A stretch of DNA of 64,000 nt from the NCBI RefSeq assembly GCF_011320225.1, contig NZ_JAAOEN010000014.1, positions 1 to 64,000 on the forward strand. The letters run 5' to 3'. The stretch comes from Phytoactinopolyspora limicola (GTDB lineage: Bacteria > Actinomycetota > Actinomycetes > Jiangellales > Jiangellaceae). Numbering within the stretch: position 1 is the first letter of the stretch; each line of letters starts with the position of its first letter. Of this stretch, positions 29,204 through 50,192 are shown piece after piece. The notes beneath the pieces were generated by a model. It did not search any database, was not told the origin of the DNA, and worked only from the letters and a program-made list of their open reading frames with translations. The position numbers and the translations under genes were made by a program.

Positions 29204-30415
29204 CTACTGATGATTCCAGTAGCGAGTTGCCGAACGTCCGAGGTCGAGATCTGGGATCACCATGGGCCCGCCGTGGCCGTTCCACATAACCGGCCACAGG
29301 TGCTCAGGCCAGCTCTCGCCCATCTGGGTGGCGAGAATGCCTATCCCGGCGACAGCCTCGGGCATGGCCACCATGCCGAGAAGAACCACACCTCCGCGCT
29401 CTCGCCATACTGCGCTGATCCATCTCGCAGCTGATTGTGCCAGCGGCTCGTAGTTCTCCCACGCATGGTGTCGGGTATCGGGAAAGGCTCGCCATTCCCG
29501 AAATTCGAGGTCGACTGTACCTGTCAGTCCGGTGTTTCCTCCTGCGTCGCGGAGTGTGAGATGGATCGGTTGTGCGGGTGTTTCGTCACCGGGTGGAATT
29601 GGACCCCATGCCCCAGGGCTCATCCGGACGAGTAATAACGTCGCAGGTTTGGGGGAAGCCGCATTCTTGGCCGTAGGATCGTCGGATCCAAAGTTCGCCG
29701 TTGCCTTCCAAATAGCGCCGGGCGCTCCTACATCCGGTAGTGATGGATCTATAGTGAAAGACTTGGGTGGCTCGCGCCATGCCTCGGGGTCCAGCCGGCC
29801 GGCTCGTCCTTCGCTTGGGCGTCGCCGTATTCCGAGCACTAATCCACGGCGGCCGGATATTGCCCTTAACGTAAATGCCAACGATACCGACCACCATGCC
29901 CAGATGAATAAGCTGTTGCGTGTTCTCTGGTTGTCGTTGTACTGGACAGCCCAGAAGGCGTAGACGAGTTCGTCCACCTTGCCACTCCATTTGTGGGCAT
30001 TCTCGTCCAGCGGCCACTTCCAGTTGCTCCCGAGTTCGTCTGGGCCAGGTACTCGTATAATGTGAGCGAATTCCGTTTGGATTCTAGTGGAGAAGTTTCG
30101 TTTCTCTTCATAGGTCCAGGTTTTTGCCGACTCATTCACAATGTATGCCGTGCCGCGACTGTCAAGTAGCCGCCTCCGGCGGAACCACAGGCGGACTCCG
30201 ACGAAGATGGCTGATACGGCCAGCGCCAAAAGGGCAGAACCAACACCCACTTCCACCAGGAAGTTATGAGAGCTGGCGTCGCTCGTGATGATGCCCGGGA
30301 GGAAACTGATGGCGCCACCAAGCGATATGGTTCCCGTCGTGAACGCAACGGCGATAGCGGGTGCCATCCGGGACACATCTTGGTCCAGTTCCTGCCACCA
30401 ACGGGGTACCCTCAC
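29204..30415 (-). CDS. Two-TM protein with SAVED-like sensor domain (Cap14-like), type III operon
   Basis: The 403-aa product has two membrane helices near the N terminus (about residues 17-43 and 52-78), then an RRRR stop-transfer, a linker, and a cytoplasmic domain. Within it, SLFIWAWWSVSLAFTLRAIS and the C-terminal VVLLGMVAMPEAVAGIGIL resemble SAVED domains, which bind cyclic oligonucleotides; two-TM plus SAVED is the layout of the CBASS effector Cap14. GTG at 30415 overlaps the previous stop by 4 bp, so it belongs to the Cas10 operon. I infer that it is a membrane effector activated by the Cas10 product. The gene is visibly more AT-rich than its neighbours. The SAVED call is by eye only. 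Confidence 0.5.
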   Translation of the reverse strand: MRVPRWWQELDQDVSRMAPAIAVAFTTGTISLGGAISFLPGIITSDASSHNFLVEVGVGSALLALAVSAIFVGVRLWFRRRRLLDSRGTAYIVNESAKTWTYEEKRNFSTRIQTEFAHIIRVPGPDELGSNWKWPLDENAHKWSGKVDELVYAFWAVQYNDNQRTRNSLFIWAWWSVSLAFTLRAISGRRGLVLGIRRRPSEGRAGRLDPEAWREPPKSFTIDPSLPDVGAPGAIWKATANFGSDDPTAKNAASPKPATLLLVRMSPGAWGPIPPGDETPAQPIHLTLRDAGGNTGLTGTVDLEFREWRAFPDTRHHAWENYEPLAQSAARWISAVWRERGGVVLLGMVAMPEAVAGIGILATQMGESWPEHLWPVMWNGHGGPMVIPDLDLGRSATRYWNHQ

Positions 30416-30924
30416 GCTGGTGTCCCAGCTGCGGCTTGTGCACGACGGTCAGAGTTGGTCGACGCCGAGACGAGTGTTACCGGCATGCCGCCGAGTACGT
30501 CGTAGATGCGCCAGCGTTGTGCCCCCCACGCTTGTGTGCCCCACCTGATCTTGACGCGAGAGGTGTCGCCGCCGCTCGGTCCTGGCCACTCAATACCGGT
30601 CTGGACCCGAACCTCCAGCTCACCGTCGTCGCGCCAGCCCGCCGGCACAGAGGCCGCGGGATCGGTGGACAGCCAGGCCATTACGACGGTGGCTTCGTCG
30701 TTGTCTACGTCTCGATTGACGCGCGCCCGGATCATGATCGTCTCGTCGGGTGTCCACGCCCACAACGTGCTCGTCCATGGACACGCTCGAGGTAGGTGGG
30801 TTGCCTGGTGCCAGCCGTCGAGGTCGGCCCAGCAGGCCCTCCACCCGGCGGTCACGGACACGAGTTCGCTCCATGCCCGCCATCCCGACGCCATGAGCCG
30901 CCCAGGGACGAACGTCGTACTCAC
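30412..30924 (-). CDS. Unknown small protein of type III-like operon
   Basis: The 170-aa product is Trp-rich (WRAWSEL, WRACWADLDGW, WTSTLWAWTPDE) with alternating strands, but I recognise no family. Its place after Csx10 and the tandem RAMP is like that of Csx19 in type III-D loci, though resemblance is not evident. GTG at 30924 directly follows the TAG of the previous gene and has GGAGG upstream within it. Its stop overlaps the start of the SAVED-like gene. A subunit or regulator role is only inferred from position. Confidence 0.7.
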   Translation of the reverse strand: MSTTFVPGRLMASGWRAWSELVSVTAGWRACWADLDGWHQATHLPRACPWTSTLWAWTPDETIMIRARVNRDVDNDEATVVMAWLSTDPAASVPAGWRDDGELEVRVQTGIEWPGPSGGDTSRVKIRWGTQAWGAQRWRIYDVLGGMPVTLVSASTNSDRRAQAAAGTPA

Positions 30925-32289
30925 CTAGCTCACCTCCGCCACGCTGGTTCTAAGACTCCGTCTGATCGTGTCCCAGCTGCCGACGTTGGTTTCATCGGTC
31001 AGTCTCAGGCTTCCGAGCCCGCGGGTTGTGCCATGGCCAAGCCCGACGAGCCCTGCGTCGATGTCGCGAATGACGGCGTCGAGAAGCGCCGTGACACCCG
31101 GCGCGGGGGCATGGGGTGCCGTGATGGTTAACGCGAGCCGGCCTTCGGTGACGATCCGTTTGGTGAAGAGGCGACGGTCGTGGCCGCCTCCGCTGAACCG
31201 GTCGATGGCGACATGAGTAACGCAGGTGTCCTTAGCGGCATCGATGACGGAGTCGGAGAAGCGCAGCAACCCCCGCCTCCCAACGACGCTCGGCACCTCT
31301 GGCCGCAGCTGCACCGGCTCGGTGTAGGTGACCCCGAAAGCCAGGCAGAACTCACACGGTGTTGTAGGTGAGCAGCCCGCATCTTTGGCGGGTGCTGGTT
31401 CGGCGTCTATGAACCGGCGGCATCCGGCTCCCAGACGGCCTAGGATCTCCGCCATCCGGGATCGGAAGATACCTTTCCAGGTGCTCCCCGGAATGACGAA
31501 CTGGTCGGTGTTGTGGTCAACACGCATCGGCTCGGCCGGGGTTCTCCCGCTGTCGCCCTCCTTGTGCTGCCCGCTCCCGATATGCAGGCCCGAGGCGAGG
31601 CTGAAGGTGGCGGTCTTTCGCCATGTCGCCACGGCGCTGTGCCCGGAGAGCGGACTGGTGGTGAGTTCGACATCGCTGACGACGTGGTCGACGAGGCTGG
31701 TGCCGCCGTAGGTGAGCCAGATCAGTAGATCTTCGTCACGGGTGAGATCCAGTGTGCCGGTCTGGACGGCTTCGACCGTGGTTGCGCCCCAACCTCGCGA
31801 CGCTCCGCCGCCTAAGGACGGGGACCAGGTGTGGAGCTTGCCGTAGAGAACGTTCCAGTCTTGCTCATCCGCCTGCCTGTTGTTGCTGTCTATGCGTAGA
31901 TAGACGGCCAGCGTGGTTCCCGGCGGGAGCAATTCGTTGGTACGCAACGTGCGTGACCGAGCAGCACCGCTGGCGGGGTCGACGGCCGTGCTCGTCCTCT
32001 TGATGACCGTGCCAGCGTCGGCTCGGCAGCCCATGATGCGCACTCGTGAGGACACGGCCACGGTCCGGCCGGCGTTGTTGGTATCGCCGCTCCGCTCGAC
32101 GTAGCCCATCAGCCGCCGCGCGTCGTCGGCAAGATGTGATCGCAGCGACCCGGCGATGGATGTCTCGGGAATGATCACCCGGCCGCCGTTGTCGCGGGGC
32201 AGCTCCAGCGTGCCCTCGATGCCCACGACTGGGCTGATTGCGGCCGGTTCTTGCAGCCGCAGGTGTACCGTTGCCAGGCGTATGATCAC
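30925..32289 (-). CDS. Tandem Cas7-Cas7 RAMP protein (Csm3-like)
   Basis: The 454-aa product contains two RAMP units. Unit 1 shows VIIPETSIAGSLRSHL (about 38-53) and a Gly-rich loop GGGASRGWGA (160-169). Unit 2 shows the Csm3-like LASGLHIGSG (231-240), FVIPGSTWKGIFRSR (264-278), a cysteine cluster around CEFCLAFG, and the loop GHGTTRGLGSLRL. Asp246 in HKEGDSGRT is a candidate for the RNA-cleaving Asp of Csm3; unit 1 lacks a clear counterpart. It should form part of the backbone along crRNA. GTG directly follows the stop of csx10. Confidence 0.8.
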   Translation of the reverse strand: MIIRLATVHLRLQEPAAISPVVGIEGTLELPRDNGGRVIIPETSIAGSLRSHLADDARRLMGYVERSGDTNNAGRTVAVSSRVRIMGCRADAGTVIKRTSTAVDPASGAARSRTLRTNELLPPGTTLAVYLRIDSNNRQADEQDWNVLYGKLHTWSPSLGGGASRGWGATTVEAVQTGTLDLTRDEDLLIWLTYGGTSLVDHVVSDVELTTSPLSGHSAVATWRKTATFSLASGLHIGSGQHKEGDSGRTPAEPMRVDHNTDQFVIPGSTWKGIFRSRMAEILGRLGAGCRRFIDAEPAPAKDAGCSPTTPCEFCLAFGVTYTEPVQLRPEVPSVVGRRGLLRFSDSVIDAAKDTCVTHVAIDRFSGGGHDRRLFTKRIVTEGRLALTITAPHAPAPGVTALLDAVIRDIDAGLVGLGHGTTRGLGSLRLTDETNVGSWDTIRRSLRTSVAEVS

Positions 32290-33291
32290 TTACGATCCCT
32301 GCCTCTCTCGGCCCTGGCGGGGTGCTGGGCTCAGCCAGCCGAAGCCTTCATTACGCCGTAGGCCGATGCCGTGCCGAAGCAGCCGCTCCAGCCCTTGCTC
32401 AGAAGGCTCGGTGGCGAAGCGTGCGGTGAACGAGGAACCAATGTCGACCGCCCATTCGGCTGGTTTGGGTAACCCGCTTGCGTTGTGCCATCCGCCGACC
32501 CGTAACCATCGGGCCGCCACGTCTCTGATCTCTTCACAGGGTGACTGAACGATCTCGGCGATCTCGTTCCGGGATGGCGTGCTGGCCGGGCGCCCCGCTG
32601 AGTCGACGAAGATGCCTGGTGAGCCCAGAAGCAACGTCACGTCGCGACCCGTCGCCTTCAGGCGGGGCGCGGCTTCCGGTGGCTCATCCACGATCTTGAG
32701 CTGGACCTCTCCGGACACGCTGGCCGCACCACCGACGCGGATGGTGCACTGCTCGCCTAGCCATTCTCGCGCCGGGCCGGTGACAAAGGCGTGGCCGGAC
32801 AGGGGTGTCCCGGACCGTAGGCCGGTTCGTTCGAAGAGTTGTCCTTCTTTGCTGGTTTCCTGGTCGGTGAGTTCGACCCGTGGCCGGCTCGTCATCAGGG
32901 ATGTCGGATCATGGGCGGGTGGTTTGAGTGCTTGTTTGACGGGGACGAGCTGCTGGCCGCAAAGTGGACATCGGCTGTTGGGCTCGCCCCAGGGGTCCGG
33001 GCGATGGAGCGGAACGCAGCCGTCGGGTGCGCCGTACTTGTGCTCCCGATACGACCGGGGAACCAGTTGGCCACCGGCGGGAAGCAACGGGCCGAACCGA
33101 CTGCGCTCGAAGACGTCGATGAACTCGGCCCGCCGGCGTTCCTGATCATGCTCACGTAACCAGCGCGCCGCCAGCGCGCCCCGCAACGTCGATCCCGGGA
33201 TGTACGGCAATCCTTCGGTCACCGCCAGGGCGCCTTTGGCGCCCACGGAGACGAATTGCTTGGTGGTCGCCACAATCCGGACAGCAGTCAC
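32290..33291 (-). CDS. csx10: Csx10-like RAMP (Cas5 group)
   Basis: The 333-aa product has LPYIPGSTLRGALAARWL near the N terminus, a single zinc-ribbon half (CPLCGQQL), and the C-terminal Gly-rich loop HGIGLRRNEGFGWL, which together resemble Csx10, the Cas5-group subunit of type III-D complexes. Cas5 proteins bind the 5' handle of crRNA. It is somewhat short for Csx10. GTG at 33291 overlaps the preceding stop. Confidence 0.75.
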   Translation of the reverse strand: MTAVRIVATTKQFVSVGAKGALAVTEGLPYIPGSTLRGALAARWLREHDQERRRAEFIDVFERSRFGPLLPAGGQLVPRSYREHKYGAPDGCVPLHRPDPWGEPNSRCPLCGQQLVPVKQALKPPAHDPTSLMTSRPRVELTDQETSKEGQLFERTGLRSGTPLSGHAFVTGPAREWLGEQCTIRVGGAASVSGEVQLKIVDEPPEAAPRLKATGRDVTLLLGSPGIFVDSAGRPASTPSRNEIAEIVQSPCEEIRDVAARWLRVGGWHNASGLPKPAEWAVDIGSSFTARFATEPSEQGLERLLRHGIGLRRNEGFGWLSPAPRQGRERQGS

Positions 33292-33842
33292 GGCCGAACC
33301 TCCTGCAGTGCACGGAGCTCTCTAACATCATCGATGGTCAGCGGCTGATCCGGGCTGATGTGGACCCACCCAAGGCCGCGGCGGCGCTGATTGCCGAGGG
33401 CATGGACCGACGCGGCGCTAGCGCGGAGGATGAGGGAGTGCCGGGTTCGCTCAGCGTCGGGGATGCGATAGTGGCTCGATATCACAAACGTGGCTGATGA
33501 CGCCCACGCGATCTGGCCGTACTGAAGATGGTCTTCCACGGCGGTGCCGGTTTCCGCGTCGATCTTCACCCGCACCCGGGGGGCGGCATCTACGCTGAAG
33601 CCCTCGCTCATGTCTGCGTCGGACCATGCCCATGGTGACGGCTGTGGGGATCTGCCGAACACCGCGTTGATGGACGGGTTAGCTATAGATAGACCTCGGG
33701 CCGCCGCCCGCATGAACCCTTTGAGAGTTGGCGCCGGTATCGGCGACACTTCGTCCACCATGGTGTCGAAACCCGCGCCGGCCTGGCCGGTAGCCACCCG
33801 GAACGGGCCGTGAAAGGTGATCGTGAATCGGAGATCAGTCAT
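33288..33842 (-). CDS. Small Cas7-like RAMP protein
   Basis: The 184-aa product has FTITFHGPFRVATGQ at the start, PIPAPTLKGFMRAAAR (about 34-49) and a Gly-rich GNQRRRGLGWV loop, the signs of one RAMP unit. Asp26 and Asp30 in GFDTMVDE are placed where Csm3 has its catalytic Asp. It is a likely backbone subunit. ATG at 33842 overlaps the end of cas10 by 8 bp. Confidence 0.75.
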   Translation of the reverse strand: MTDLRFTITFHGPFRVATGQAGAGFDTMVDEVSPIPAPTLKGFMRAAARGLSIANPSINAVFGRSPQPSPWAWSDADMSEGFSVDAAPRVRVKIDAETGTAVEDHLQYGQIAWASSATFVISSHYRIPDAERTRHSLILRASAASVHALGNQRRRGLGWVHISPDQPLTIDDVRELRALQEVRP

Positions 33843-35193
33843 GCCACCAACTCCGGGCTAGCAGCTCAGCTTCGACCGGTGTGAATACACCAGGGTTCGG
33901 CGGGTGGGATAGGGTTTTGAACCTCTCCGGCTCCAGCCCGAGCCGTTCACATTCCTGCTCCCAGGTTTCCCAGTGGTTTGGGTCGCCCGGCTTGTAGCGC
34001 AGCGCGAGATTTCGCCGGGTTGATGCGCCAAGGCGGGCGAAGTCGTTGAGTGCGGTGCGCAGCTCGTCTGTTGAGTCGAGTGACGACTCCCGGAGCACCG
34101 CCCGAGTAGGTGGAACCCTGCGTCCGTCGACGGTGACGTGGACCCATGAGATGCTGGCCTGTTCTCCTTGGACCACGTTCTTCGCGTGCCGCAGGACGTC
34201 ATACGCGAGTTGTGAGGTCGCGGAGAAGGGGTAGTGGGTGTCCGCGAAGACTATTCCGGCGGAGACCGACCCGCTGGAGCTCGTCTGGACGTCGTTCAGG
34301 TGTGTGCTTAGGGCCTGCCGCATGTCCGTGGTAGCTGTCCGGACATATGCCTGCGTGAACGGCCACGCCGCCCGCGCGGGCACGCTGACCAGTACGTCGT
34401 CACCCCCGGTGACGTGGGCGATCACTGGATCCTCAGCGCAGCCAAGGTGTTCTCTAGCAGCTATCCGTCCGGCGTCCAGCGCCGCTGTGACACTCTCTGC
34501 GACGTCTCGGGATAACCGCGCGATGACACGGAAGTCGCCGTTGGCGGTTGATGTCTGGAATACCTCGCCGAGTCGGTTCGCGTCGATATAGATGGTCGCG
34601 AGGTGGTTGCCGCTGCGCTTGTCGAGGGCCGCCAGCTCGTCGAAGGTTCGCCCGGTGCCACCGCTGACCTTGTTGCGCATCGAGCAGTCCGGGCAGACGC
34701 TGAGAACCCGGTTCTCTTCTGCGTCTTTGACGCTGATCGTGGCCGTAGCCGAGTCCAACCGGCACATATCGCACAGTCGAGCGGTGGGCAGCTCGTTCGG
34801 CGACGGCAGTGTTTCGATCCGCCCGGAGTCTCCGATCACGCTCGCCAGGCCGGGTCCTTGGGCCTGGAGGGCAGCGAGCTCACCAAGGGCCAGATCGTCG
34901 TCATCGGCATACACCCAGGACACGTGCATCTCCGCACCTGGAATCCGTTTTCTCAGTGCGACCGCGAGCCTGGAAGCCTCCGCCTCACCTGACCCCTGAC
35001 GGTCAGAGACCACGTCGATGACCCCGTCGACGTTGACGGCGGACGGATGAGCCTGAAACCCGGCGCTCGCTGCCGCCGCCATCAGCTGCTGATGTGTTAA
35101 CGCTGTTGATGCCCCGCGCAGAAGCGACAGCTTCGGGGTGCGCGACACATAGCTTTGGATCCGGGCGACTCCGGCGCGCAAGTACAGCGTCAT
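33835..35193 (-). CDS. cas10: Cas10-like protein with GGDD cyclase motif and no HD domain
   Basis: The 452-aa product is short for Cas10. It lacks an N-terminal HD nuclease; residues 1-110 look like a first palm-type region (ARIQSYVSRTPKLSLL). A zinc finger follows (CDMC at 141-144, CPDC at 167-170). The second palm has IYIDANRLGEVF and HVTGGDDVLVSVPA (GGDD at 263-266), which implies a working oligoadenylate cyclase. So this complex probably signals but does not cut DNA through Cas10. The stop overlaps the small RAMP gene; the start overlaps the TIGR03986-type gene. Confidence 0.85.
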   Translation of the reverse strand: MTLYLRAGVARIQSYVSRTPKLSLLRGASTALTHQQLMAAAASAGFQAHPSAVNVDGVIDVVSDRQGSGEAEASRLAVALRKRIPGAEMHVSWVYADDDDLALGELAALQAQGPGLASVIGDSGRIETLPSPNELPTARLCDMCRLDSATATISVKDAEENRVLSVCPDCSMRNKVSGGTGRTFDELAALDKRSGNHLATIYIDANRLGEVFQTSTANGDFRVIARLSRDVAESVTAALDAGRIAAREHLGCAEDPVIAHVTGGDDVLVSVPARAAWPFTQAYVRTATTDMRQALSTHLNDVQTSSSGSVSAGIVFADTHYPFSATSQLAYDVLRHAKNVVQGEQASISWVHVTVDGRRVPPTRAVLRESSLDSTDELRTALNDFARLGASTRRNLALRYKPGDPNHWETWEQECERLGLEPERFKTLSHPPNPGVFTPVEAELLARSWWHD

Positions 35194-37364
35194 CTCCGAC
35201 CGCCCTTCTTCTGAGGCTTCGGAGGGGGTGTGCGCCCCTTTTTGCGGAGTTCGTCACCGGTGAGCATCGAGGCGTCGTCCTTGTCCGGCGCCGGTAAACT
35301 GCGGAGCTTCGAGTCGACCCGGACGGTTCGACCGTTGATCTTGGACTCCACTGTTGACGGCTGGCCAGAGGTGAACTGCCAAAACTCGTAGTCGGAATCC
35401 TCGCCGCGTCCCGGCACCGGCTTGGCATCGATACCTCGGGCATCGTTCGGATAACGCACCAGAGCATCGTCGACGTGTGCGAATCGCGTCATCGCCGTCA
35501 GGGCTCTCCATCGAGCCGAGTTTGCGTTCCGGTCGACGGCTGCCAGAAAGGCGTCGACGGCCTCGGTAACCGTTGGCGCTGTCTGATCGTCGGCCCCCAG
35601 GTATCTTCCCCGTGCCGTAGCCAGGTCTAGTTTGATCAAAGGGGCGCCGTCTTCCGTCCGGACGGCCACCGATCCGAACCCGAAGGGCTTGCCTCCACCG
35701 ATGCTGAGCACGTAGTCGCTGGGGGAGTCGTCAGGGCCGAGAACGAGTCCGGGGGCGACGCTCGCCAGCAACGCACCAAGCTCGGCACGCGTCACGTCGT
35801 CGACGAACAGGGTGACCGTCATACGGCCCCCGGGCTGGACGATCCGTGCACCGTGTTGGGATGCGGCCATCGATTCGGCCGCCGCTTCGGTGTCAGTCGG
35901 GGCGCTGCGGGCGGTCTGGGACTCGACATCCACGTCGGTCCGCCAGTAGAACTTCCTACCGCGGATCTGCCGTGGCGGGGAGTCATGATGCGACTCTGCC
36001 GACCACCACGCGAGCGGCCGTTCACCATTCGACGTGGTCTTATGTTCCAGCCCATCGTTCACCAGATAGAACTGGCCGGCACCCGGATGTGGAGTGCCCA
36101 TCGGTGCGAGATCCTTGTTATGAACCGGCGAGGGCTGGCCATTCTCGTCAACCAGGAGCGCGTCGGCGACTCTGACCCTGCCTCGGTAGCCGCCGCTGCG
36201 TCCCCTGCGTTCATTGCGTGGCTGGGGGCCCTGACGTCGGGGCTTGTCGAGATCGACATCGTCCTCAACCGCAGAGCCGAACAGCAGGCAACTCGGACAT
36301 AGTCCGCGCATCTCAGGGTTGTTCCACGACTCCGTCGCGGCCGGGTCGAGGCCAAGCGCGATCCGCAGCCGCGGTCCGCTCTCGCACGGGAGTACTGCGG
36401 GCGGCACCCGCTCCTCGACCGGGGTCTCTCCCAGCGCCCGCCAGACCTGGCTGACCTTCAACTCTGTGACGACACGTCGTCCATCGACGGTCTCCACCTT
36501 CCCCCACAGCACCCTGCCGGGCCAAGGGTCACCGATGCTGGGATCGCGAAAGCCAATAACCTCCGTCGTGCTCGGCGCATGAACCTCGACGTGACGCAGC
36601 GGGTTGTCGTCGATACCGGCCGTTCCAGCATTGCGGCGCTGTTGGCTGTCGTCCGAGTTTTCGCTTGCCTTTTTGAAGCTGGTCATCGCTTCCGGGCTGA
36701 CCGAAACCGGTACCGCGTTGTCCATCCGAGCGAATGCAACGTACCAACGTTTGTTGGCCGTCCGGGTGCCGCCGTCGCTGATGAGCACGACCCCGTGGCT
36801 CCCCTCGGCGGATTCCGCCCGATGGAGCGTGCCATCGACGATTCGAGGTGGTCCAGCTTTCGGTCGGTCGATGCCGGTGCGCGGCCAGGCGAAGAGGTCG
36901 CCCGTCCTGGGTGGACCTGCGCCAAAGACACCTTTTTTGCCCTCTTCGGGACTCCACAGCAGTGCCTTGATTACATCGCGTCGCTCGGCCGCCGTTGCGA
37001 GGATTTCTCCATCGTCGCCGAGAGAGTCGATGCGGACAACGGTCCACTCTTTGGGCAAGAGGGCCACGGGTTCTCGGTAAACCGGAACGAAATCGGTATC
37101 CAGAACCCGCATACACGAATCGGTCAAGACCTCGTGCATGTTTCGGATCGATCCATGCAGAGACGAGCCACGCACCACGGGGTAGTCGTCAGTGGTGCCG
37201 GCCGTTTCGGTAGCCGGGAGTTTGAGCGGGCTGCGGAGTTCGAGTTCGATGTCGACGCGCCCAGACCACCGATCCGGCCCGGACGCCGCTGTCCGCGACC
37301 TAGGCTCAGTCCGGGAAACCACGTCGGGTAAGGGCACGAAGTTGTAGGGGTTGACGAATGGCAC
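35190..37364 (-). CDS. TIGR03986-type RAMP protein, first gene of type III-like operon
   Basis: The 724-aa product begins with PFVNPYNFVPLP, the hallmark start of the TIGR03986 CRISPR-associated RAMP family. It has VVRGSSLHGSIRNMHE (RAMP motif), a cysteine pair in LCPSCLLFGSA, and a late Gly-rich segment GGGKPFGFGSV, suggesting two RAMP units. It is probably a large backbone or capping subunit. GTG at 37364 follows AGGGGG at 8 nt; it is the promoter-proximal gene of seven. Confidence 0.8.
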   Translation of the reverse strand: MPFVNPYNFVPLPDVVSRTEPRSRTAASGPDRWSGRVDIELELRSPLKLPATETAGTTDDYPVVRGSSLHGSIRNMHEVLTDSCMRVLDTDFVPVYREPVALLPKEWTVVRIDSLGDDGEILATAAERRDVIKALLWSPEEGKKGVFGAGPPRTGDLFAWPRTGIDRPKAGPPRIVDGTLHRAESAEGSHGVVLISDGGTRTANKRWYVAFARMDNAVPVSVSPEAMTSFKKASENSDDSQQRRNAGTAGIDDNPLRHVEVHAPSTTEVIGFRDPSIGDPWPGRVLWGKVETVDGRRVVTELKVSQVWRALGETPVEERVPPAVLPCESGPRLRIALGLDPAATESWNNPEMRGLCPSCLLFGSAVEDDVDLDKPRRQGPQPRNERRGRSGGYRGRVRVADALLVDENGQPSPVHNKDLAPMGTPHPGAGQFYLVNDGLEHKTTSNGERPLAWWSAESHHDSPPRQIRGRKFYWRTDVDVESQTARSAPTDTEAAAESMAASQHGARIVQPGGRMTVTLFVDDVTRAELGALLASVAPGLVLGPDDSPSDYVLSIGGGKPFGFGSVAVRTEDGAPLIKLDLATARGRYLGADDQTAPTVTEAVDAFLAAVDRNANSARWRALTAMTRFAHVDDALVRYPNDARGIDAKPVPGRGEDSDYEFWQFTSGQPSTVESKINGRTVRVDSKLRSLPAPDKDDASMLTGDELRKKGRTPPPKPQKKGGRR

Positions 37365-37903: not shown

Positions 37904-40303
37904 ATGGGTGGAGTTCGCGTCGGCTGCACTTTTGACGAGTTGGTGCTTGCAGCCGCTGGCCATGAGCCGTACCACTACCAGCGCCGGCTGGCGGTGGATG
38001 GGTTGCCCGAGTTGCTCAACGTGCCTACGGGCGCGGGGAAAACGCTGGCGGCCACGTTGCCGTGGCTCTATCGCCGCCGTTTCCATCCGGACGGCGCGGT
38101 TCGTGCGCCGACGCCGCGGCGGCTCGTCATCGTGTTGCCGCAACGCGCGTTGGTCGAGCAGACCGAACGTGTTGTCCGCGGGTGGTGTGAGAGCGTGAGC
38201 GTCAACATCGGTGTACACGTGCTGTTGGGTGGAGTGTCGAGGGACGACCGCGCCTGGAAGCTCCGGCCCGAGGCTGACGCGATCTTCGTTGGCACGCAGG
38301 ACATGGTGCTGTCGCGGCTGCTGTTGCGGGGCTATGCGGAGGCGCCGGGAGCCCGGCCGATGTCTTTTGGGCTGCTGAACTCGGGCACTCAGTTCGTCTT
38401 CGACGAGGTCCAGTTGATGGGGCCGGGGTTGCCGACGTCGCTCCAGCTCGAGGCCCTCCGTCGGAGTCTCGGGACGGCCGAATCGTGTAGGTCGATGTGG
38501 ATGTCGGCGACGGTCGACCTGGGCACCCTGGCCACGGTCGACTACGTGGGCCCGTCGACGACGGTCGAGATCAGTGAGGCCGACCGGACTGGTCCGTTGG
38601 CCGATCGCCTCGCGGCCACTCGCCTCGTTACCCGTCTGGACGTCAGCAACGATGCCAAGCGTTACCCGAGGGAGCTGGCTGCTGAGGTCATCGCGCGGCA
38701 TAAGCCTGGTGCCCGAACGTTGGTTGTGCTCAACACGGTCGAACGTGCTCAGGCGGTTTACCAATCGCTCGCCGCGTTGTCCGGCGAGACGAGGACGCTC
38801 CTCCTGCATTCGCGATTTCGCCCACCGGACCGGCAGGCCCGTACGGCTGAGTTGGCGGACGTCGAGGACGGCATCGTCGTCGCCACGCAGGTTCTCGAAG
38901 CGGGCCTTGACATCACGTCGATGTTGCTGGTCACCGAGCTGGCGCCATGGTCGTCCATAATCCAGCGGGCGGGACGGTGCAACCGCGACGGCAACGCGCA
39001 CGGCGCGGTGCTGGCGTGGGTCGCGCCGCCTGGCGGCCGGGCCAGCGCGGCGCCCTACGTGAAGGGAGATCTTGCAGCGAGTGAGGCGGCATTGCGGGAT
39101 CTCGAAGGGTCGTCGGTCACCAGCGGGGATCTCATCTCTCGGGACGTCGCTCAGGAGCGATCCGTTTATCCGGTGCTGCGGCGTCGCGACGTGCTCGGTT
39201 TGTTCGATACGACGCCGGACCTTGCGGGCAACGACCTCGACGTCGGGCGCTGGATCCGAGACGCTGACGAGACAACCGTCTACGCCGCGTGGCGCAACGG
39301 CGAGCCGGACACCACCGCTGAGCAGTCGGCGGGCATCCCTTCAAGGGACGAATTGTGCCCCGTTCCAGTCGGTGGCCTGCGCGCCTGGGTGCGGAAGAAG
39401 AAGGCTGTTTGGCGCTATGACCACATGACGGCCGAGTGGGTCAGAGTTCTTGCCGAGCGTGATGTCCGGCCGGGGGCGGTGTATCTGCTCGTCGCCGCCG
39501 AGGGCGGTTACCTCCCTGAACTGGGCTGGTCTCCGAGAGAGCGCCGACCGGTACCTGTTATCGCCGGTGACGCTGTGGTGGACGCGGTCGATGCGGTGGG
39601 CGACGACACCGCGAGCGCCCGGAGTGGGCGTGCGGTCACCCTGGCTCAGCATCTCGATGATGTCGACCGCGAGGTTCATGCCCTGATCGATCAGCTAGGA
39701 CCGCTGCTGGGTCTGGACGCGCATCACGTGGAGGCAGCGGCGCTGGCTGGTCGGTTCCACGACTTGGGCAAGGCGCACCCGGTGTTCCAGGAGTCCTTGC
39801 GCAACGCCGCCGACGGCGCCCTGGGGGACGGCATCTGGGCGAAGTCGGATACGCATCAGCGCTTGCGGCATCGTCGCCGGTACTTCCGGCATGAGCTGGT
39901 CAGCGCATTGATGCTCCTGGATGGCGCCAGCCACCTGCTGAACGGTGTGGACGACCCGGACCTGGTGGCCTATCTCGTCGCGGCACACCACGGCAAGGTC
40001 CGGATGGCCGTACGTTCGATGCCGGGGGAGTCCGAAGACGGGACCGTGCTCGGGGTTGGACATCCTGACGACGCCGCGACGTTGCCGTTGCAGCTCATAA
40101 CCGGTGAAAGTGTGCCAGCTGTTCAGCCGGACCTCGATGCCATCCGGATCGGTTCAGACGGCGAGCCTACCTGGACGGCCCGGACCGCGGCTCTTCGAGA
40201 CCGGCCTGACCTGGGACCGTTTCGGCTGGGTTTCCTCGAGGCCATCGTCCGTGTCGCCGACCAGCGGGTGAGCCGCCGGTACCAGGAGGGAACGGGCGCG
40301 TGA
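37904..40303 (+). CDS. cas3: Type I-G Cas3 helicase-nuclease
   Basis: Cas3 unwinds and degrades target DNA. The 799-aa product has the helicase first: NVPTGAGKTLAATLPWL (Walker A), VFDEVQLMG (box II), and VATQVLEAGLDI plus IIQRAGRCNRDG late in the motor. The HD nuclease is at the C terminus (HHVEAAALAGRFHDLGKAHP, VAAHHGKVR), the domain order typical of type I-G (I-U) rather than of other type I subtypes. ATG at 37904 has GAGGGG upstream. The stop overlaps csx17. Confidence 0.93.
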   Translation: MGGVRVGCTFDELVLAAAGHEPYHYQRRLAVDGLPELLNVPTGAGKTLAATLPWLYRRRFHPDGAVRAPTPRRLVIVLPQRALVEQTERVVRGWCESVSVNIGVHVLLGGVSRDDRAWKLRPEADAIFVGTQDMVLSRLLLRGYAEAPGARPMSFGLLNSGTQFVFDEVQLMGPGLPTSLQLEALRRSLGTAESCRSMWMSATVDLGTLATVDYVGPSTTVEISEADRTGPLADRLAATRLVTRLDVSNDAKRYPRELAAEVIARHKPGARTLVVLNTVERAQAVYQSLAALSGETRTLLLHSRFRPPDRQARTAELADVEDGIVVATQVLEAGLDITSMLLVTELAPWSSIIQRAGRCNRDGNAHGAVLAWVAPPGGRASAAPYVKGDLAASEAALRDLEGSSVTSGDLISRDVAQERSVYPVLRRRDVLGLFDTTPDLAGNDLDVGRWIRDADETTVYAAWRNGEPDTTAEQSAGIPSRDELCPVPVGGLRAWVRKKKAVWRYDHMTAEWVRVLAERDVRPGAVYLLVAAEGGYLPELGWSPRERRPVPVIAGDAVVDAVDAVGDDTASARSGRAVTLAQHLDDVDREVHALIDQLGPLLGLDAHHVEAAALAGRFHDLGKAHPVFQESLRNAADGALGDGIWAKSDTHQRLRHRRRYFRHELVSALMLLDGASHLLNGVDDPDLVAYLVAAHHGKVRMAVRSMPGESEDGTVLGVGHPDDAATLPLQLITGESVPAVQPDLDAIRIGSDGEPTWTARTAALRDRPDLGPFRLGFLEAIVRVADQRVSRRYQEGTGA

Positions 40304-42525
40304 ACAGCATCGTGTTGGTCGGATGCCGAGCCGAGCCGCTCGGTAGCTATCTCACCGGACTGGGCTTGTGGCGCGCAGTGGTCAGATTGCTTGACTCCGA
40401 CGCGAAAGCGCATTGGTCGGCCGGTCAGATGGTGTTGACGACGAGGTTCGCCGACGTCGACGAGCTCACCGCACGGCTGGCCGAGACCTTCGAGCCGTTG
40501 CCGATCGTGTCGCCGTGGAACGCGGGATCGGGTTTCGCCGGCAATGGCAGGAGCCGCTCCGCCGAGGACACGTTGAACCGTATCCGGGTGTCCACCGATG
40601 GTCGACTCGCCGCGGTTCGCCACGCCGTCGCCGCGGCCGATCGGGTCGTCACTGAAGGACGGGACGCCGGCCTGGCCGGCAAAGGCGCCGAGATGTGGGC
40701 CAAGAAGCGCAAGGCCGACGTCGTCATGCTCGCTCGGAACATGTTGCCCGACGACGCGCTCGTGTGGGTGGACTCGACCGTGGTGCTGGGCCAGGACGAC
40801 GAACCGGCGTATAACCGCCTGCTTGGCACTGGTGGCAACTTCGGCCGTCAGGACTTGTCCGCCACCTACCTTGAGCGTGCCGTGGCGCTGGTTGACCGGC
40901 CTGATCTCACCCGGTTGCGGGCGGCCTTGACCGGCGATGAGTCGGTTCGCTACAGCCGGGATGCCGTGGGGCAGTTCGATCCGGGTCGGGCCGGCGGCGT
41001 TCAGTCGTCGCCATGGGAGAAATCCGACGACAGAGGCTTCGTCAATCCATGGTCGTTTGTGCTCGGCCTCGAAGGCGCGGTCTTGTTCGCGGCGGCCGTC
41101 GTCCGGCGGTACGGGGCACAATCGGTCAACGCCGCGGTACCGTTCGTGGTCGCCGCTTCCACGGCCGGTTCTCCAGACGCCGCTGCTGGTGAGCAGGCCA
41201 GGGGTGAGATCTGGACTCCGATGTGGGAGCGGCCGGCCCGGCTGGCCGAAGTGGAGCAGCTCTTGAGCGAAGGCCGGGCTGAGTGGCGAGGTACGGCGGC
41301 GCGCACCGGCTTGGACTTCGTAAGAGCTATCTCGTCACTTGGGGTAGACCGAGGGTTGTCGTCGTTCACCCGGCACGTCGTCGTTGACCGCCTCGGGCAA
41401 AATCCCCTCGCTGTCCCGGTCGATCGAGTCAGCGTCGAACACCGGCCCGAAGTCCGGCTGCTCGGAGACCTGGACACCTGGTTGTCGGGTCTGCGTGGCC
41501 GGAACCTTCCCGCCGCGGTGGCGAGTGAACTGCGGGTACTCGACGCCGCCGTGTACGCGGTCTCGAGCGGCCAGGACCGCCGTGGTCTTCAACGGGTTCT
41601 TATGGCGCTGGGGAGTTTGCACGATGTGGTGGCACGGTCGGGACGGATCCGCGAAGTAGTCCGGCCGCTGGTTCTCAGACGCCCACACGAGTGGCTGGCG
41701 GCGCTGGATGGTGGTTCGCGCGAGGTGCGTTTAGCAGCGGCGCTGGCGTCGGGGCGCGACGGCGGAAAGCAGCCCGGTCCGGCGTTGCGTGAGCTGCTCA
41801 CCCCGATACGGATAGAACGTGGCGTCGTGCGGTGGAGCGATCGGCCGACGCTGGTGCCAAGCGGCGTCGACGTGGCGACGATGCTGGCTATGGCGCATCG
41901 ACGGCGTGCGAGGCCAGGAGTTGTTCCCGAACCGGGGGCGGCAGCGGACAATGATGGGGCAACACGTGACGGTGATGTGCAGCCCGCCGTGCGTGGAGTG
42001 TTCAGCGCGTTCCGACATGGCTCGTGGGCGCCGCTCGAGGACGTCGCCGCCGTAGCGATGGGGTCGATTGACCACCGTCTGTTCGGTGACTTGCTCCGTG
42101 GCTTCATGTTGGCGGACTGGCGGCGTGGAGAACGCGCTGACTGGCCGAAGGCGGAATGGCATCCGATTCCGTCCGCGCTCGCGTTGCTGTTGCCCTTCTA
42201 CGCCGTCCACCCACTCAGAATTCACCAAGACGGCGATGAACAGGAACGAGACATCCTTCTCCGCCCGGGAACCCGCTGGATCACCCAACTGCTGTCCGGG
42301 CATACAGCACAGGTGGCAGCCGTCCTCGATGACGCTCGCCGGCGTCTCGTGATCGCGGGTATCGAGCGTCTCGTCCGACCGGCGGCAGACGTCGATGGTC
42401 CGGAGCTGGCTGCGGCGTTGCTAGTGCCAACGTCGTCGTCGGCCCGGCGTCGCGCGCTGCACGCTGTCGCTGACCTTCCTCAACCCCGCACCGAAAACCA
42501 GGATCTCGAAGGAGCAGAAGTATGA
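40300..42525 (+). CDS. csx17: Csx17, large subunit of type I-G Cascade
   Basis: The 741-aa product opens with IVLVGCRAEPLGSYLTGLGLWR, the hallmark of Csx17 (Cas8 role in type I-G). It includes WNAGSGF and EKSDDRGFVNPWSFVLGLEG, also family-typical. It probably recognises the PAM and holds the crRNA 5' end. GTG at 40300 overlaps the cas3 stop; its own stop overlaps csb1. Confidence 0.9.
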   Translation: MNSIVLVGCRAEPLGSYLTGLGLWRAVVRLLDSDAKAHWSAGQMVLTTRFADVDELTARLAETFEPLPIVSPWNAGSGFAGNGRSRSAEDTLNRIRVSTDGRLAAVRHAVAAADRVVTEGRDAGLAGKGAEMWAKKRKADVVMLARNMLPDDALVWVDSTVVLGQDDEPAYNRLLGTGGNFGRQDLSATYLERAVALVDRPDLTRLRAALTGDESVRYSRDAVGQFDPGRAGGVQSSPWEKSDDRGFVNPWSFVLGLEGAVLFAAAVVRRYGAQSVNAAVPFVVAASTAGSPDAAAGEQARGEIWTPMWERPARLAEVEQLLSEGRAEWRGTAARTGLDFVRAISSLGVDRGLSSFTRHVVVDRLGQNPLAVPVDRVSVEHRPEVRLLGDLDTWLSGLRGRNLPAAVASELRVLDAAVYAVSSGQDRRGLQRVLMALGSLHDVVARSGRIREVVRPLVLRRPHEWLAALDGGSREVRLAAALASGRDGGKQPGPALRELLTPIRIERGVVRWSDRPTLVPSGVDVATMLAMAHRRRARPGVVPEPGAAADNDGATRDGDVQPAVRGVFSAFRHGSWAPLEDVAAVAMGSIDHRLFGDLLRGFMLADWRRGERADWPKAEWHPIPSALALLLPFYAVHPLRIHQDGDEQERDILLRPGTRWITQLLSGHTAQVAAVLDDARRRLVIAGIERLVRPAADVDGPELAAALLVPTSSSARRRALHAVADLPQPRTENQDLEGAEV

Positions 42526-43484
42526 CCGCGACCCGTCACGTCTACGACGCCGAACTCAAGCCGATCCTTGGCAGCACGTTTCAGCCAACCGGGTTCCCTG
42601 ACCTGGGTGCCGCGACTTTCACTCGGCTAGAGGATGGGGAACCCGTCGAGTCTTTGCTGGTCGAGTCGGTGCAGTCGATGGCCAACCGGTTGGAAGCAAC
42701 CGCGTGGAACCCGGGTTCGCAACAACCGGAAGATGTGGTGCAAGGACTCTCATATGTGCGCGTGGATCGTCAGAGCACCGGGGAGTTCCTGACCTCGAGC
42801 CGCCTCGAGGCACACCGACTCGCCTCACCGTTCGTATGGGAATCCGAAGGTGACGACGGCACCACGTTCTTCGACGTCATCACCGCGCGGCTCGGGTTGG
42901 CGAAGGATACGCCGCTGAACTATCCGAAGATGGCCCGCGCGATCCTGGAGCTGGATCCGTTCTGCCTCGTCCATGGGGTGTTCTTCTCTCGTAAGGAATG
43001 GCTCGGCCAGCCCAAGTTCCCTCGCGCGGTCAGCGGCGTCATCGAAGCACACAACGTCAAGCAAGCGCCGTCAGGCGGACGGAAGGCAGACCACGTACGT
43101 CATCAGCTGGACCGCGATGCCGAAGGTGGAGGAACCGCGGAGGGCTACGGCTCGGTGCCGTTCCACCGCATGGAATGGACCGCTGAGCGCATCGTGGCGT
43201 CGTTCGTTGTCGATGTTGATCTGCTGCGGTCGTATGGCCTGCCGGACGGCACCACCGACATGCTGATCACACTCGCCCAGTGGGAGATCCGGTCGCTGCT
43301 GTCCGGTGGCCTACGGCTGCGCACTGCTTGCGATCTGGAGGTTGTCGGCGACGCCGAGACACGCCGCGGCGACCCGTTGCCGAACCTGGACGAGCTGACC
43401 GAGCGGCTAACGACACTCATCGCCGAGAGCCGGGACGTTCTCGGCGATGGCGAACCCACCGTTGTCCGCTGGGCGAAAGGCTGA
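42522..43484 (+). CDS. csb1: Csb1 (Cas7 backbone of type I-G)
   Basis: The 320-aa product belongs to the GSU0053/Csb1 family, a Cas7-group RAMP coating the crRNA spacer. Visible signs are TSSRLEAHRLASPFVW, LVHGVFFSRKEWLGQPKFPR and HNVKQAPSGGRKADHV. It is placed between csx17 and csb2, the usual order. ATG at 42522 overlaps the csx17 stop. Confidence 0.9.
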   Translation: MTATRHVYDAELKPILGSTFQPTGFPDLGAATFTRLEDGEPVESLLVESVQSMANRLEATAWNPGSQQPEDVVQGLSYVRVDRQSTGEFLTSSRLEAHRLASPFVWESEGDDGTTFFDVITARLGLAKDTPLNYPKMARAILELDPFCLVHGVFFSRKEWLGQPKFPRAVSGVIEAHNVKQAPSGGRKADHVRHQLDRDAEGGGTAEGYGSVPFHRMEWTAERIVASFVVDVDLLRSYGLPDGTTDMLITLAQWEIRSLLSGGLRLRTACDLEVVGDAETRRGDPLPNLDELTERLTTLIAESRDVLGDGEPTVVRWAKG

Positions 43485-43489
43485 TCCAC

Positions 43490-44899
43490 ATGGCTACCAC
43501 TCTGGTGGTCTCGTTCGTCATGGGGCGCTATCACGCGACGCCATGGGGACGCCATGTCAACGAAGGGTCGGTCGAGTTGCCGCCGTCGCCATGGCGTCTG
43601 CTTCGCGCGCTGTACGCGGTCTGGAAGACTCGCGCGCCCGACCTCGACGCGCCCACGGTGATCGGGTTGTTCGGACGGCTCGCCGAGCCTCCAACCTACT
43701 TCGTGCCGCCGTTCCGGCTGGCGCACACACGGCACTACTACCCGGACAGCCAGCACCGCACGGGGAGTACCCCAAGCGTCGACCGGACGTTGGACGCCTT
43801 CGCGGTGTTCGCCCACAACGCCGAACTCGGCATCCGGTGGCCGTTCGACCTTGAACCCGAGCAGCACAAGGCGTTCGAGCGGCTCGCCTCGTCGTTGCCG
43901 TACCTCGGTCGGGCGGACAGTGTGTGCGAAGCCCGGGTGGTGGAGAACTGGACGCCGCCGGCCGATGCGGTCGCGTCCGGGCCGGTAGACGTCGGAGAGT
44001 CGGTGCCGTCGTCAACGAGCGTGATCCGGCTCCTGTGTCCGTCGCTGCCGCTGGACGTCGAAGCGTTGACGGATCGACCGGTTGACGTGCGGGCCGGCCG
44101 GCTGCTTTTTCCGTCGGGAACCCGGTTCGTTGGATATCTCAAGCCTGTCGAGCACGCGATCCCGGCGAGAACCGCACGACCGGCTGTCGGTCCGGTTCAG
44201 GCCGTGCGTTTCTCGGTGCTCAACCGGGTGCTCCCCGCCCTGAACGACATGGTGACGTTGACGCACCTACTGCGGCAGACAGTACTGAACAAGTTCTCCG
44301 ATCAGCATCCGGCGTACTGGTGGTTCGCAGGCAAGGACCCGCACGGGCAACCACTGCACGGGCACAACCATCCCCACTACCTCGCGCTTCCCGACGAGCG
44401 GCACAGGGTCGGTGAGCTGGCCGTGTGGCTGCCGAACGCGACCAACGGCAGCGACGACGTTCTCCAACGCCTCTCCGGAGTGCGGCGTTTGTGGCGCCCT
44501 CACGACGGGGGTAGGCCAGAAGCGGCCATCGCGGTCCGTCTCTCCAGTTTCGGGACCGTTCAGCAGGTGCTGCCGGAGTATGCGGGCGAAAGTTCATCGT
44601 GGGTGTCGGCGACGCCATTCGTACCGACCGGACATCGCAAGGGGGAGTGGCAGGAGTTTCTCCGTCGTCGTTTGATCAGGGAGCTGGCCTACCGTGAGCA
44701 TCTCCCCGCAGACGCACAAGTGACGCTCCTTCGGGGACCCGGCGTCAGAGTCGCACCACGGCGGCCGTACGAGCCGGGGACACATGTACCAACCCCGACG
44801 TGGCTGCGGATCGAATTCGCTCAGCCAGTGCCAGGTCCGGTTGTTCTTGGCAGGCTGGCTCATTTCGGGCTGGGATTGTTCAAGGTGGATTCGTCATGA
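43490..44899 (+). CDS. csb2: Csb2 (Cas5-Cas6 fusion of type I-G)
   Basis: The 469-aa product resembles GSU0054/Csb2, which combines the Cas5 cap and Cas6 processing roles. The start VVSFVMGRYHATPWGRHVNE, PPSPWRLLRALYAVW, and the C-terminal SATPFVPTGHRKGEW are family features. It is the only candidate crRNA-processing enzyme in the window, so it must serve the I-G complex and perhaps the type III-like one. ATG at 43490 lies 5 bp after csb1; the longer frame upstream is inside csb1. Confidence 0.88.
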   Translation: MATTLVVSFVMGRYHATPWGRHVNEGSVELPPSPWRLLRALYAVWKTRAPDLDAPTVIGLFGRLAEPPTYFVPPFRLAHTRHYYPDSQHRTGSTPSVDRTLDAFAVFAHNAELGIRWPFDLEPEQHKAFERLASSLPYLGRADSVCEARVVENWTPPADAVASGPVDVGESVPSSTSVIRLLCPSLPLDVEALTDRPVDVRAGRLLFPSGTRFVGYLKPVEHAIPARTARPAVGPVQAVRFSVLNRVLPALNDMVTLTHLLRQTVLNKFSDQHPAYWWFAGKDPHGQPLHGHNHPHYLALPDERHRVGELAVWLPNATNGSDDVLQRLSGVRRLWRPHDGGRPEAAIAVRLSSFGTVQQVLPEYAGESSSWVSATPFVPTGHRKGEWQEFLRRRLIRELAYREHLPADAQVTLLRGPGVRVAPRRPYEPGTHVPTPTWLRIEFAQPVPGPVVLGRLAHFGLGLFKVDSS

Positions 44900-46557
44900 A
44901 CGCGGGCACCGAGGCGATACCTGAGTTGTTGCCAGCGCGCATGCTCAACGAATTCGTCTACTGCCCGCGGCTGTTCTACTTCGAATGGGTGGATACCAGG
45001 TGGGCGGATAACGACGACACCGAGGCCGGCAGGTTCACCCACAGGGTGGTTGATGAACCGGGCGGCCACATGCCGCCTCCCGAAGCTGTTGAGCTGCTGA
45101 AACAGGTGCGGTCGTTTCGCGTCGAAAACCGAGACCTCGGCCTGATCGCCGTCATCGATCGGATTGACGCCGGTGACGCCGGCGTCATCCCGGTCGACTT
45201 CAAGAAAGGGCGGCCCACTCCAGAGGGTGAACCATGGCCCACCGACCGTGCCCAGGTGATGGTGCAAGCGGTGTTGCTGTCCGCCGCTGGATACGACGTC
45301 GATCACGCCATCGTCTACTACGCCGAGACGAATCAGCGCATCGTCGTGCCTGTCACGGACGCCGACTACGACGAAGTCCACGACCTGGTCAGCGCGGCAC
45401 GCGAGGTAGCCAACCAGGTCAAGCCTCCGCTGCCTCTAGTGAGCAGTCCGAAATGCCCACGCTGCTCACTCGTCGGGCTGTGCCTGCCGGACGAGACCAA
45501 CGCACTGTTGGAACGTGCCGAGACACCCCCGCGGCGGATTACCCCCAGGGATCCTGATCACCGCCCGCTTTATGTCACGGAGCAGGGAGCCTTCGTCGGC
45601 GTGAAGGGCGGCCGGTTGGTGGTCACGAAGGCGAAGGAAAAGCTCGCCGACGTTCGCCTCATCGATGTTGCTCAACTGTGCCTGTTCGGTCATGTCCAGG
45701 TGTCCTCCGAGGCTCTGAGCCGACTATGGACACACGGCGTCCCCGTTCTGTGGTTCAGCTATGGAGGCTGGCTGCGTGGCTGGGCACAAGGTGAACCGTC
45801 GCGCTACGTCGAGCTCCGACGTCGGCAGGTGATTGTGCATGGCCAGGGTGGGCTCGGAATCGCTTGCCGAATGATCGCCGGGAAGATCCGCAACTGCCGC
45901 ACCTTGCTCCGACGCAACTCCCGCGGTGACGTGTCATCGGTGGTCGAAGCGTTGGGACGCCTCTACTCGCAGGCTGAACGCGCGACGTCGATACCTGAAC
46001 TTCTCGGCATCGAAGGGACAGCGGCGCGGATCTACTTCGGTGAGCTCACGACGATGGTGGCGCCCGCGCGCAGCCACCTCGCCAGCGGCTTCGACCGCGA
46101 CGGCAGGACCCGCAGACCTCCAACGGACCCGGTGAACTGCCTCCTGAGCTACGCCTACGCGCTGCTACTCAAGGACATCGTCGCAGTATGTCTTGGTGTC
46201 GGGCTCGACCCATTCATCGGCGTGCTGCACCGTCCCCGGTTCGGACGACCGTCGCTGGCCTTGGACCTCGCCGAGGAGTTCCGACCGCTCATCGCGGACT
46301 CGGTCGTGATCGGGCTGTTGAACAACGGCGAGGTCGACTCGCACGACTTCATCATCCGCGGCCGGGGCGTGACGCTGACTCAGAACGGTCGGCGTACCGT
46401 GCTACGGGCCTACGAACGCCGCCTTGACCAGACCGTCACTCACCCGACGTTTGGTTACAAGATCAGCTATCGGCGGGTCATCGACGTGCAGGCCAGGATC
46501 ATGGCCGCGGTCATGATCGGTGAGCTACCCGACTACGTGCCGATGACCACCAGGTGA
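44896..46557 (+). CDS. cas4-cas1: Cas4-Cas1 fusion integrase
   Basis: The 553-aa protein joins two adaptation enzymes. Cas4 part (1-205): MLNEFVYCPRLFYFEWV, VDFKKGRPTPEGEPWPTDRA (RecB-type nuclease core), and CPRCSLVGLC for the Fe-S cluster. Cas1 part (from about 215): LYVTEQGAFVGVKGGRLVV, the catalytic Glu region EGTAARIYFG, and His in GVLHRPRFGRPSLALDLAEE. Such fusions are typical of type I-G and set PAM and orientation of new spacers. ATG overlaps the csb2 stop. Confidence 0.94.
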   Translation: MNAGTEAIPELLPARMLNEFVYCPRLFYFEWVDTRWADNDDTEAGRFTHRVVDEPGGHMPPPEAVELLKQVRSFRVENRDLGLIAVIDRIDAGDAGVIPVDFKKGRPTPEGEPWPTDRAQVMVQAVLLSAAGYDVDHAIVYYAETNQRIVVPVTDADYDEVHDLVSAAREVANQVKPPLPLVSSPKCPRCSLVGLCLPDETNALLERAETPPRRITPRDPDHRPLYVTEQGAFVGVKGGRLVVTKAKEKLADVRLIDVAQLCLFGHVQVSSEALSRLWTHGVPVLWFSYGGWLRGWAQGEPSRYVELRRRQVIVHGQGGLGIACRMIAGKIRNCRTLLRRNSRGDVSSVVEALGRLYSQAERATSIPELLGIEGTAARIYFGELTTMVAPARSHLASGFDRDGRTRRPPTDPVNCLLSYAYALLLKDIVAVCLGVGLDPFIGVLHRPRFGRPSLALDLAEEFRPLIADSVVIGLLNNGEVDSHDFIIRGRGVTLTQNGRRTVLRAYERRLDQTVTHPTFGYKISYRRVIDVQARIMAAVMIGELPDYVPMTTR

Positions 46558-50000: not shown

Positions 50001-50192
50001 TGTTTCACCGCCATTCCTGGTCATTACGACCAGGCTCCATTGCGGCGGGTCTGATCTTGTATCGCACTCGTGCCGGCACGCCGGGCCATTCCTGGTCATT
50101 GCGACCAGGCTCCATTGTGGCTCTCGCATGCTTGCGCGATTGGCCTTGGCGCCAGGCCATTCCTGGTCATTGCGACCAGGCTCTGTTGCGGC
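47026..50192 (+). CRISPR. Type I-G CRISPR array, 44 repeats and 43 spacers
   Basis: I counted 44 copies of a 36-bp repeat from 47026-47061 to 50157-50192, with spacers of 34-40 bp (mostly 35-39). The repeat starts CCATT, contains the palindrome CCTGGTCATTACGACCAGG (7-bp arms, 5-base loop) and ends CTCCATTGCGGC. Nearly all copies are identical. Exceptions: copy 20 (48410-48436) lacks 9 bp; copy 41 (49937) has one change; copies 43 (50086) and 44 (50157) have two and three. Spacers 39 (49825-49863) and 42 (50047-50085) are identical. Spacer 11 (47782-47819) looks like part of a tRNA gene. Confidence 0.98.

Follow-up and report, generated by a model that had tools for sequence, protein, structure and literature searches.

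Organization of the III-D operon

The window, a 64,000-nucleotide stretch of a Phytoactinopolyspora limicola contig (NZ_JAAOEN010000014.1), carries a seven-gene operon on the minus strand, in the order cas7, cas10, csm3, csx10, cas7x2, a cas11-like gene and a putative membrane gene, together with a divergently oriented type I-G module that has a CRISPR array (Table 1). cas10 stands second, and the six successive intergenic gaps measure -4, -8, -4, 0, 0 and -4 bases.

Table 1. Positions of the operon genes, of the neighbouring I-G module and of the proteins occupying the last slot in related loci (window numbering, or that of the locus named)
Feature	Record	Coordinates	Strand	Remarks
cas7-type RAMP, 724 aa	window	35190..37364	-	TIGR03986, 177.4 bits (cut-off 161.35)
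cas10, 452 aa	window	33835..35193	-	predicted palm1, four-Cys motif, palm2, C-terminal part; no HD domain
csm3-like Cas7, 184 aa	window	33288..33842	-	PDLC01404, E 3.7e-44
csx10-like Cas5, 333 aa	window	32290..33291	-	PADLOC Cas5_IIId, E 6.7e-17; TIGR02674, E 8.9e-16
double Cas7 (cas7x2), 454 aa	window	30925..32289	-	PADLOC Cas7_IIId, E 5.2e-38
Cas11/Csx24-like small subunit, 170 aa	window	30412..30924	-	PADLOC, E 1e-6 and 3.4e-6
403-aa protein, candidate effector	window	29204..30415	-	no known family; hydrophobic stretches; 4-base overlap with cas11-like gene
Cas3g (type I-G)	window	37904..40303	+	HD domain 580-700 (NCBIfam cas3_HD)
rest of I-G module	window	40300..46557	+	Cas8g1/Csx17, Csb1/Cas7g, Csb2, Cas4g/Cas1g
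Cas8g1/Csx17	window	40300..42525	+	
Csb1/Cas7g	window	42522..43484	+	
Csb2 Cas5-Cas6	window	43280..44899	+	
Cas4g/Cas1g	window	44800..46557	+	
CRISPR array	window	47026..50046		40 exact copies of a 36-nt repeat
TM protein	L004	14259..15419		PADLOC CorA-like, E 2e-21; SAVED_TM, 2.4e-6; Pfam SAVED, E 0.019
TM protein	L005	14218..15360		PADLOC CorA-like, E 9.2e-20; Pfam SAVED, E 1.8e-4
TM protein	L015	14241..15383		PADLOC CorA-like, E 1.1e-18; Pfam SAVED, E 0.0013

The type III large-subunit family was recognized in Cas10 by Pfam, by PADLOC and by a profile comparison with the III-D chain 8s9t_C. The best match of Csx10 was PADLOC Cas5_IIId, its TIGR02674 match (58 bits) lying under the curated 177.3, and a passage of PMC11026444 names csx10, the III-D variant of cas5, as a marker. 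Csx19, a frequent but dispensable component of III-D systems, was not among the PADLOC matches listed for the seven operon proteins, of which the 170-aa one is Cas11/Csx24-like. On these family matches, the operon is a type III-D effector module.

Three Streptomyces records carrying III-D loci were used for comparison, namely, NRRL F-5122 (L004), AC558_RSS880 (L005) and the S. anthocyanicus plasmid NZ_CP109573.1 (L015). The first six operon proteins matched all three in identical order, each with E <=5e-10 (tblastn), and the seventh, of 403 aa, had no tblastn match in any of them. Since six of seven proteins match with their order kept, the operon is more than a chance arrangement. As a separate observation, the L015 module is carried by a linear plasmid, with two tyrosine recombinase genes a few kb away.

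The 452-aa open reading frame reported in the first-pass annotation is real, with the correction that its coding strand is the minus strand: the frame is open across 33835-35193, and the plus-strand reading of the same interval contains 13 stops. An in-frame stop 20 codons upstream of the ATG leaves no room for a longer extension, and the cas7 gene ahead of cas10 overlaps it by 4 bases; we therefore rejected a misplaced start concealing an HD domain.

Cas10 lacks an HD domain

The absence of an N-terminal HD motif, proposed from a first reading of the protein, was borne out. The single HD dipeptide of Cas10 occupies residues 451-452, its C-terminal end, and no HD family was detected in the protein with Pfam, NCBIfam or PADLOC up to E 1, while the NCBIfam model cas3_HD served as a positive control by detecting the HD domain of the neighbouring Cas3g. 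The two best Cas10 profiles in PADLOC (370 and 414 positions) covered residues 7-352 (E 9e-29) and 4-352 (E 1.9e-28) and were matched nearly from the model start; judging from their length, profiles of this size are too short to include an HD domain, and the protein would thus begin with palm1. NCBIfam gave only below-cut-off matches to Cmr2 and Csm1, and the Csm1 model (753 positions) matched from its position 490 onward. Palm2 (PF22335) was found at residues 198-340, with 38.3 bits against a Pfam cut-off of 27. The zinc finger described earlier corresponds to four cysteines that are indeed present, C141/C144/C167/C170, forming CxxC motifs at 141-144 and 167-170.

The structure of residues 1-130 was also compared with III-D Cas10, using an AlphaFold2 model built from a three-sequence alignment (mean pLDDT 49.4). 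Foldseek ranked four III-D Cas10 chains first (8s9u, 8s9v, 8s9x and 8s9t; best E 2.2e-9), but TM-scores were near 0.3 and the rmsd was 17-18. In VIA, the top row was the III-B Cas10 9lq5_B (Z 9.9), aligned to model residues 184..362 only, and the III-D chains followed with Z of 8.9, 8.5 and 7.2; the second of these, 8s9t_C, aligned its residues 4..419 with model residues 7..363 (rmsd 6.0, 241 aligned). Where type III-A (Csm1) rows start at model residue 1-17, the chain enters the alignment at its residue 240-279, a region which we take to lie beyond the HD domain. The remaining VIA rows begin at palm2 and are uninformative on the N-terminus. Model residues 1..120 further aligned with the GGDEF domain 3ezu at Z 7.1 (rmsd 4.5, 103 aligned), a middling level for this tool, whose caveat is that Z <8 may reflect merely a common arrangement. 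In profile comparisons, 8s9t_C ranked first of 12 with the three-relative profile (E 4.6e-15, through palm2), and the alignment against three other Cas10s paired palm2 alone, leaving the N-terminus uncovered. Weak as it is (pLDDT about 49), the model thus suggests a palm-like N-terminus with no HD domain in view, in agreement with the first palm domain (palm1) of solved Cas10s.

That residues 1-130 might instead form a strongly diverged HD domain still cutting DNA is exceedingly improbable in our judgment. The sequence is diverged enough (31-35% identity to the nearest named relatives) and the model poor enough in places (pLDDT <50 at residues 9-32 and 100-140) to raise the idea, but neither the profiles nor the model support it: no HD dipeptide precedes residue 451, the short Cas10 profiles begin at residues 4-7, the III-A alignments enter their chains only at 240-279, and the first 120 residues resemble a GGDEF domain at the level given above. 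As far as its sequence tells, Cas10 is HD-less. This is the norm of the subtype: a 2018 review (PMC6013697) states, in the section available, that Cas10 of III-D systems is usually without an HD domain. The protein is thus the usual HD-less III-D form and adds one member, leaving the known picture unchanged.

The palm pocket and signalling output

GGDD was confirmed as intact at residues 263-266. We aligned the pocket with that of two relatives from Streptomyces, 35% and 34% identical, in both of which the palm2 motifs are kept: D204, N206, G263, G264, D265, D266 and the four cysteines are invariant across the three Cas10s, and at position 205 both relatives have Gly in place of the Ala found here. 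GGDD and its partner Asp in palm2, the features of an active Cas10 cyclase/polymerase, are thus both present, and by its residues Cas10 retains the motifs of an active palm.

The proposal that signalling is the main output held in direction and outline. It agrees with published III-D work: passages of PMC11229360 report an HD domain in 3% of III-D Cas10s, taken there to suggest that III-D works primarily through cOA, and PMC11026444 describes, in the parts consulted, a Synechocystis III-Dv Cas10 with a truncated HD that responds to target RNA by synthesizing cOA and so activating Csx1, a palm mutation abolishing both cOA synthesis and Csx1 activation. Yet signalling is already the standard reading for III-D, and the missing HD domain is a subtype norm rather than an event specific to this locus. 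By analogy with such relatives, target RNA is probably cut by the Cas7 subunits as well.

A system acting solely through target RNA cutting, with an inactive Cas10 pocket, is very unlikely. Residue 205 does depart from both compared relatives and the 403-aa protein has no proven sensor, but D204, N206 and GGDD are invariant among the three relatives, a related core elsewhere is accompanied by a CARF-RelE protein, a signal-dependent type of effector (see below), and about 97% of Cas10s are predicted active according to the portion of PMC12669027 available.

The effector slot and the 403-aa protein

The seventh place in L004, L005 and L015 is held by a protein that has two hydrophobic stretches in its N-terminal part. 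The next gene is cas6, which is annotated in L015 and whose copies in L004 and L005 are 68% and 90% identical. Under their CorA-like label these TM proteins are possibly TM-SAVED effectors, their Pfam SAVED matches all lying below the cut-off; a passage of PMC9704534 mentions TM-containing SAVED proteins as a prediction for type III systems. A related core lies at a contig end in another genome of the same phylum (L033, 2399-4967), with part of cas10, csm3, csx10, cas7x2 and, by PADLOC, Cas11 (E 1e-16), followed by the CARF-RelE protein (E 3.8e-27) and Mem_01, a PADLOC six-TM membrane protein (E 5.6e-47). The slot thus contains signal-dependent or membrane proteins in all four related loci under comparison.

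Here the slot is occupied by the 403-aa protein, whose gene overlaps the cas11-like gene by 4 bases. Hydrophobic stretches at residues 20-39 (mean hydropathy at best 1.65, marginal), 51-79 (2.32) and 341-363 (2.11) make membrane insertion likely, with an ambiguous topology because the first stretch is marginal and the third lies near the C-terminus. Pfam gave no match up to E 10, and in neither NCBIfam nor PADLOC did any family rise above noise. Of 396 genomes drawn from the phylum and 393 drawn from the class, only its own gave a match; the two draws may overlap, and few first-look candidates were scored per genome. There was none in 72,556 plasmids, and viral contigs yielded no confirmed relatives of either this protein or Cas10. 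An AF2 model (pLDDT 32) was too poor for a fold test.

A TM-SAVED identity, suggested by the position of the gene and by inspection of the protein by eye, is not claimed here: a profile of only three sequences, the Streptomyces TM proteins, scored the 403-aa protein below shuffled controls (300 of the whole sequence and 300 of its C-terminal part), and hhalign with that profile gave a probability of 0.1%. A tblastn match in L033 (E 8.3e-6, on the opposite strand over csx10, obtained without composition correction) was set aside; it disappeared once composition correction and filtering were on. The gene also stands out in composition, with a third-position GC of 0.63 against 0.73-0.78 in the other six operon genes and of 0.53-0.57 in 80-codon windows starting at codons 161-281; the low value across 29204-30415 may reflect recent acquisition or a disturbed frame.

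The link drawn earlier between the signal and the downstream membrane gene is favoured by operon coupling and by the slot contents elsewhere, but no messenger-binding domain was found in the protein with the family searches above. By its position and hydrophobic segments, the 403-aa protein is probably a signal-activated effector; as the target of the messenger itself it can be named only weakly. Another protein elsewhere in the genome could be the real target, the 403-aa gene then having a different role or being a decayed or recent insert, an account that we hold to be doubtful. The failure to find homologues in the phylum, class and plasmid searches and the deviating third-position GC fit that account, but the 4-base overlap with the cas11-like gene and a slot shared with the two-stretch proteins of L004, L005 and L015 do not. 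An effector role stays our preferred reading, and the presence in this slot of an orphan protein that is probably bound to the membrane is a point of modest interest.

Guide supply and the neighbouring I-G array

Between positions 27000 and 37900, the III-D operon shows neither cas6 nor cas1 nor an array belonging to it, and no array-like repeat was found there. Cas6 was the best family for 0 of the 7 operon proteins. PF10040 (Cas6) found nothing in the one genome searched, its own, in a search that is insensitive (5 of 14 controls detected, only 2 over the cut-off, the I-G Csb2 missed), and a Streptomyces Cas6 query, run without a positive control, returned nothing in the genome and noise only in the window. 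Exact copies of the 36-nt I-G repeat in the genome are confined to the I-G array. Because the III-D operon shows neither cas6 nor an array, we propose the I-G array as a possible source of its guide RNAs.

The array itself gave no phage match. An identical 39-nt spacer occurs at 49825-49863 and 50047-50085, near the distal array end, and is followed by degenerate repeats. Another spacer (47782-47819) resembles by eye the complement of a tRNA gene; 30 of its bases had no other copy within 3 mismatches in the genome.

A III-D module that shows no Cas6 or array belonging to it, placed beside a I-G module, could serve as a test of guide sharing between a DNA-targeting and an RNA-sensing complex. 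In a bolder version, which we regard as unlikely, the 403-aa protein would represent a new family of membrane effectors gated by the messenger, its soluble sensor resembling neither CARF nor SAVED in sequence, and would act as sole executioner of an HD-less III-D complex borrowing the guides of the adjacent I-G array. If this were true, DNA attack by I-G and membrane attack by III-D would share one spacer memory.

Proposed mechanism

Gene content, order, coupling, the absence of HD and the intact GGDD can all be read directly from the DNA; messenger synthesis and RNA cleavage are predicted from studied relatives. With these elements, the locus very probably encodes an actinobacterial III-D system with a Cas10 of the usual HD-less kind, in which palm2 would make a messenger, Cas7 would cut RNA, Cas10 would cut no DNA and the signal would act on a putative membrane protein. 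A crRNA-guided complex of Cas10, Csx10, several Cas7 domains and the Cas11-like subunit, its guides possibly supplied by the I-G array, would bind invader RNA. Palm2 of Cas10 (D204, GGDD) would then produce a nucleotide messenger, most likely a cyclic oligoadenylate, as the Cas7 subunits would cut the target RNA, and Cas10 itself would leave DNA uncut. The messenger would most likely activate the product of the last operon gene, the putative membrane protein, and the membrane would be disturbed.

Distribution and comparison with known systems

Relatives of Cas10 are sparse. A search of genome_contigs, which finds close relatives only, confirmed 2 of 33 pattern matches (L004 and L005). Plasmids contributed 3 matching records of 72,556, in two of which the match spanned 92% of the query, and 2 of 99 close genomes matched, one being the genome itself. 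Including that genome, 7 of 396 genomes matched in the phylum draw with the L005 Cas10 as query and 13 of 393 in the class draw with the alignment as query; the other rows listed in the class draw all fall within profile positions 211-382, the palm2 region.

The closest likeness is to the Streptomyces loci L004, L005 and L015, which share the order cas7-cas10-csm3-csx10-cas7x2-cas11, then a protein with two hydrophobic stretches, at a Cas10 identity of 31-35%. They differ in having cas6 after the TM gene and, in L004 and L005, their own repeats downstream. Their TM proteins match CorA-like and, weakly, SAVED (PADLOC), whereas the 403-aa protein matches neither.

The Synechocystis III-Dv complex (PDB 8s9t/u/v/x), as far as excerpts of PMC11026444 describe it, likewise has a Cas10 without a working HD domain, a GGDD palm and cas7 fusions. 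cOA production on target RNA binding was shown for that complex. A Cas7-Cas5-Cas11 fusion, Csx19, a downstream Cas6-2a and an upstream Csm6/Csx1 belong to Synechocystis only; here Cas5 and Cas11 are separate genes, Csx19 is missing from the matches listed, Cas6 is never the best family for any of the seven proteins, and a putative membrane protein comes last. Finally, type III membrane effectors such as Cam1, Csx23, CorA, Cap1 and the predicted TM-SAVED proteins, in the descriptions available in part, resemble the 403-aa protein in combining a hydrophobic N-terminal part with a soluble remainder beside cas10; in the 403-aa protein, by contrast, no sensor domain could be identified, and its matches in Pfam, NCBIfam and PADLOC stayed at the level of noise.
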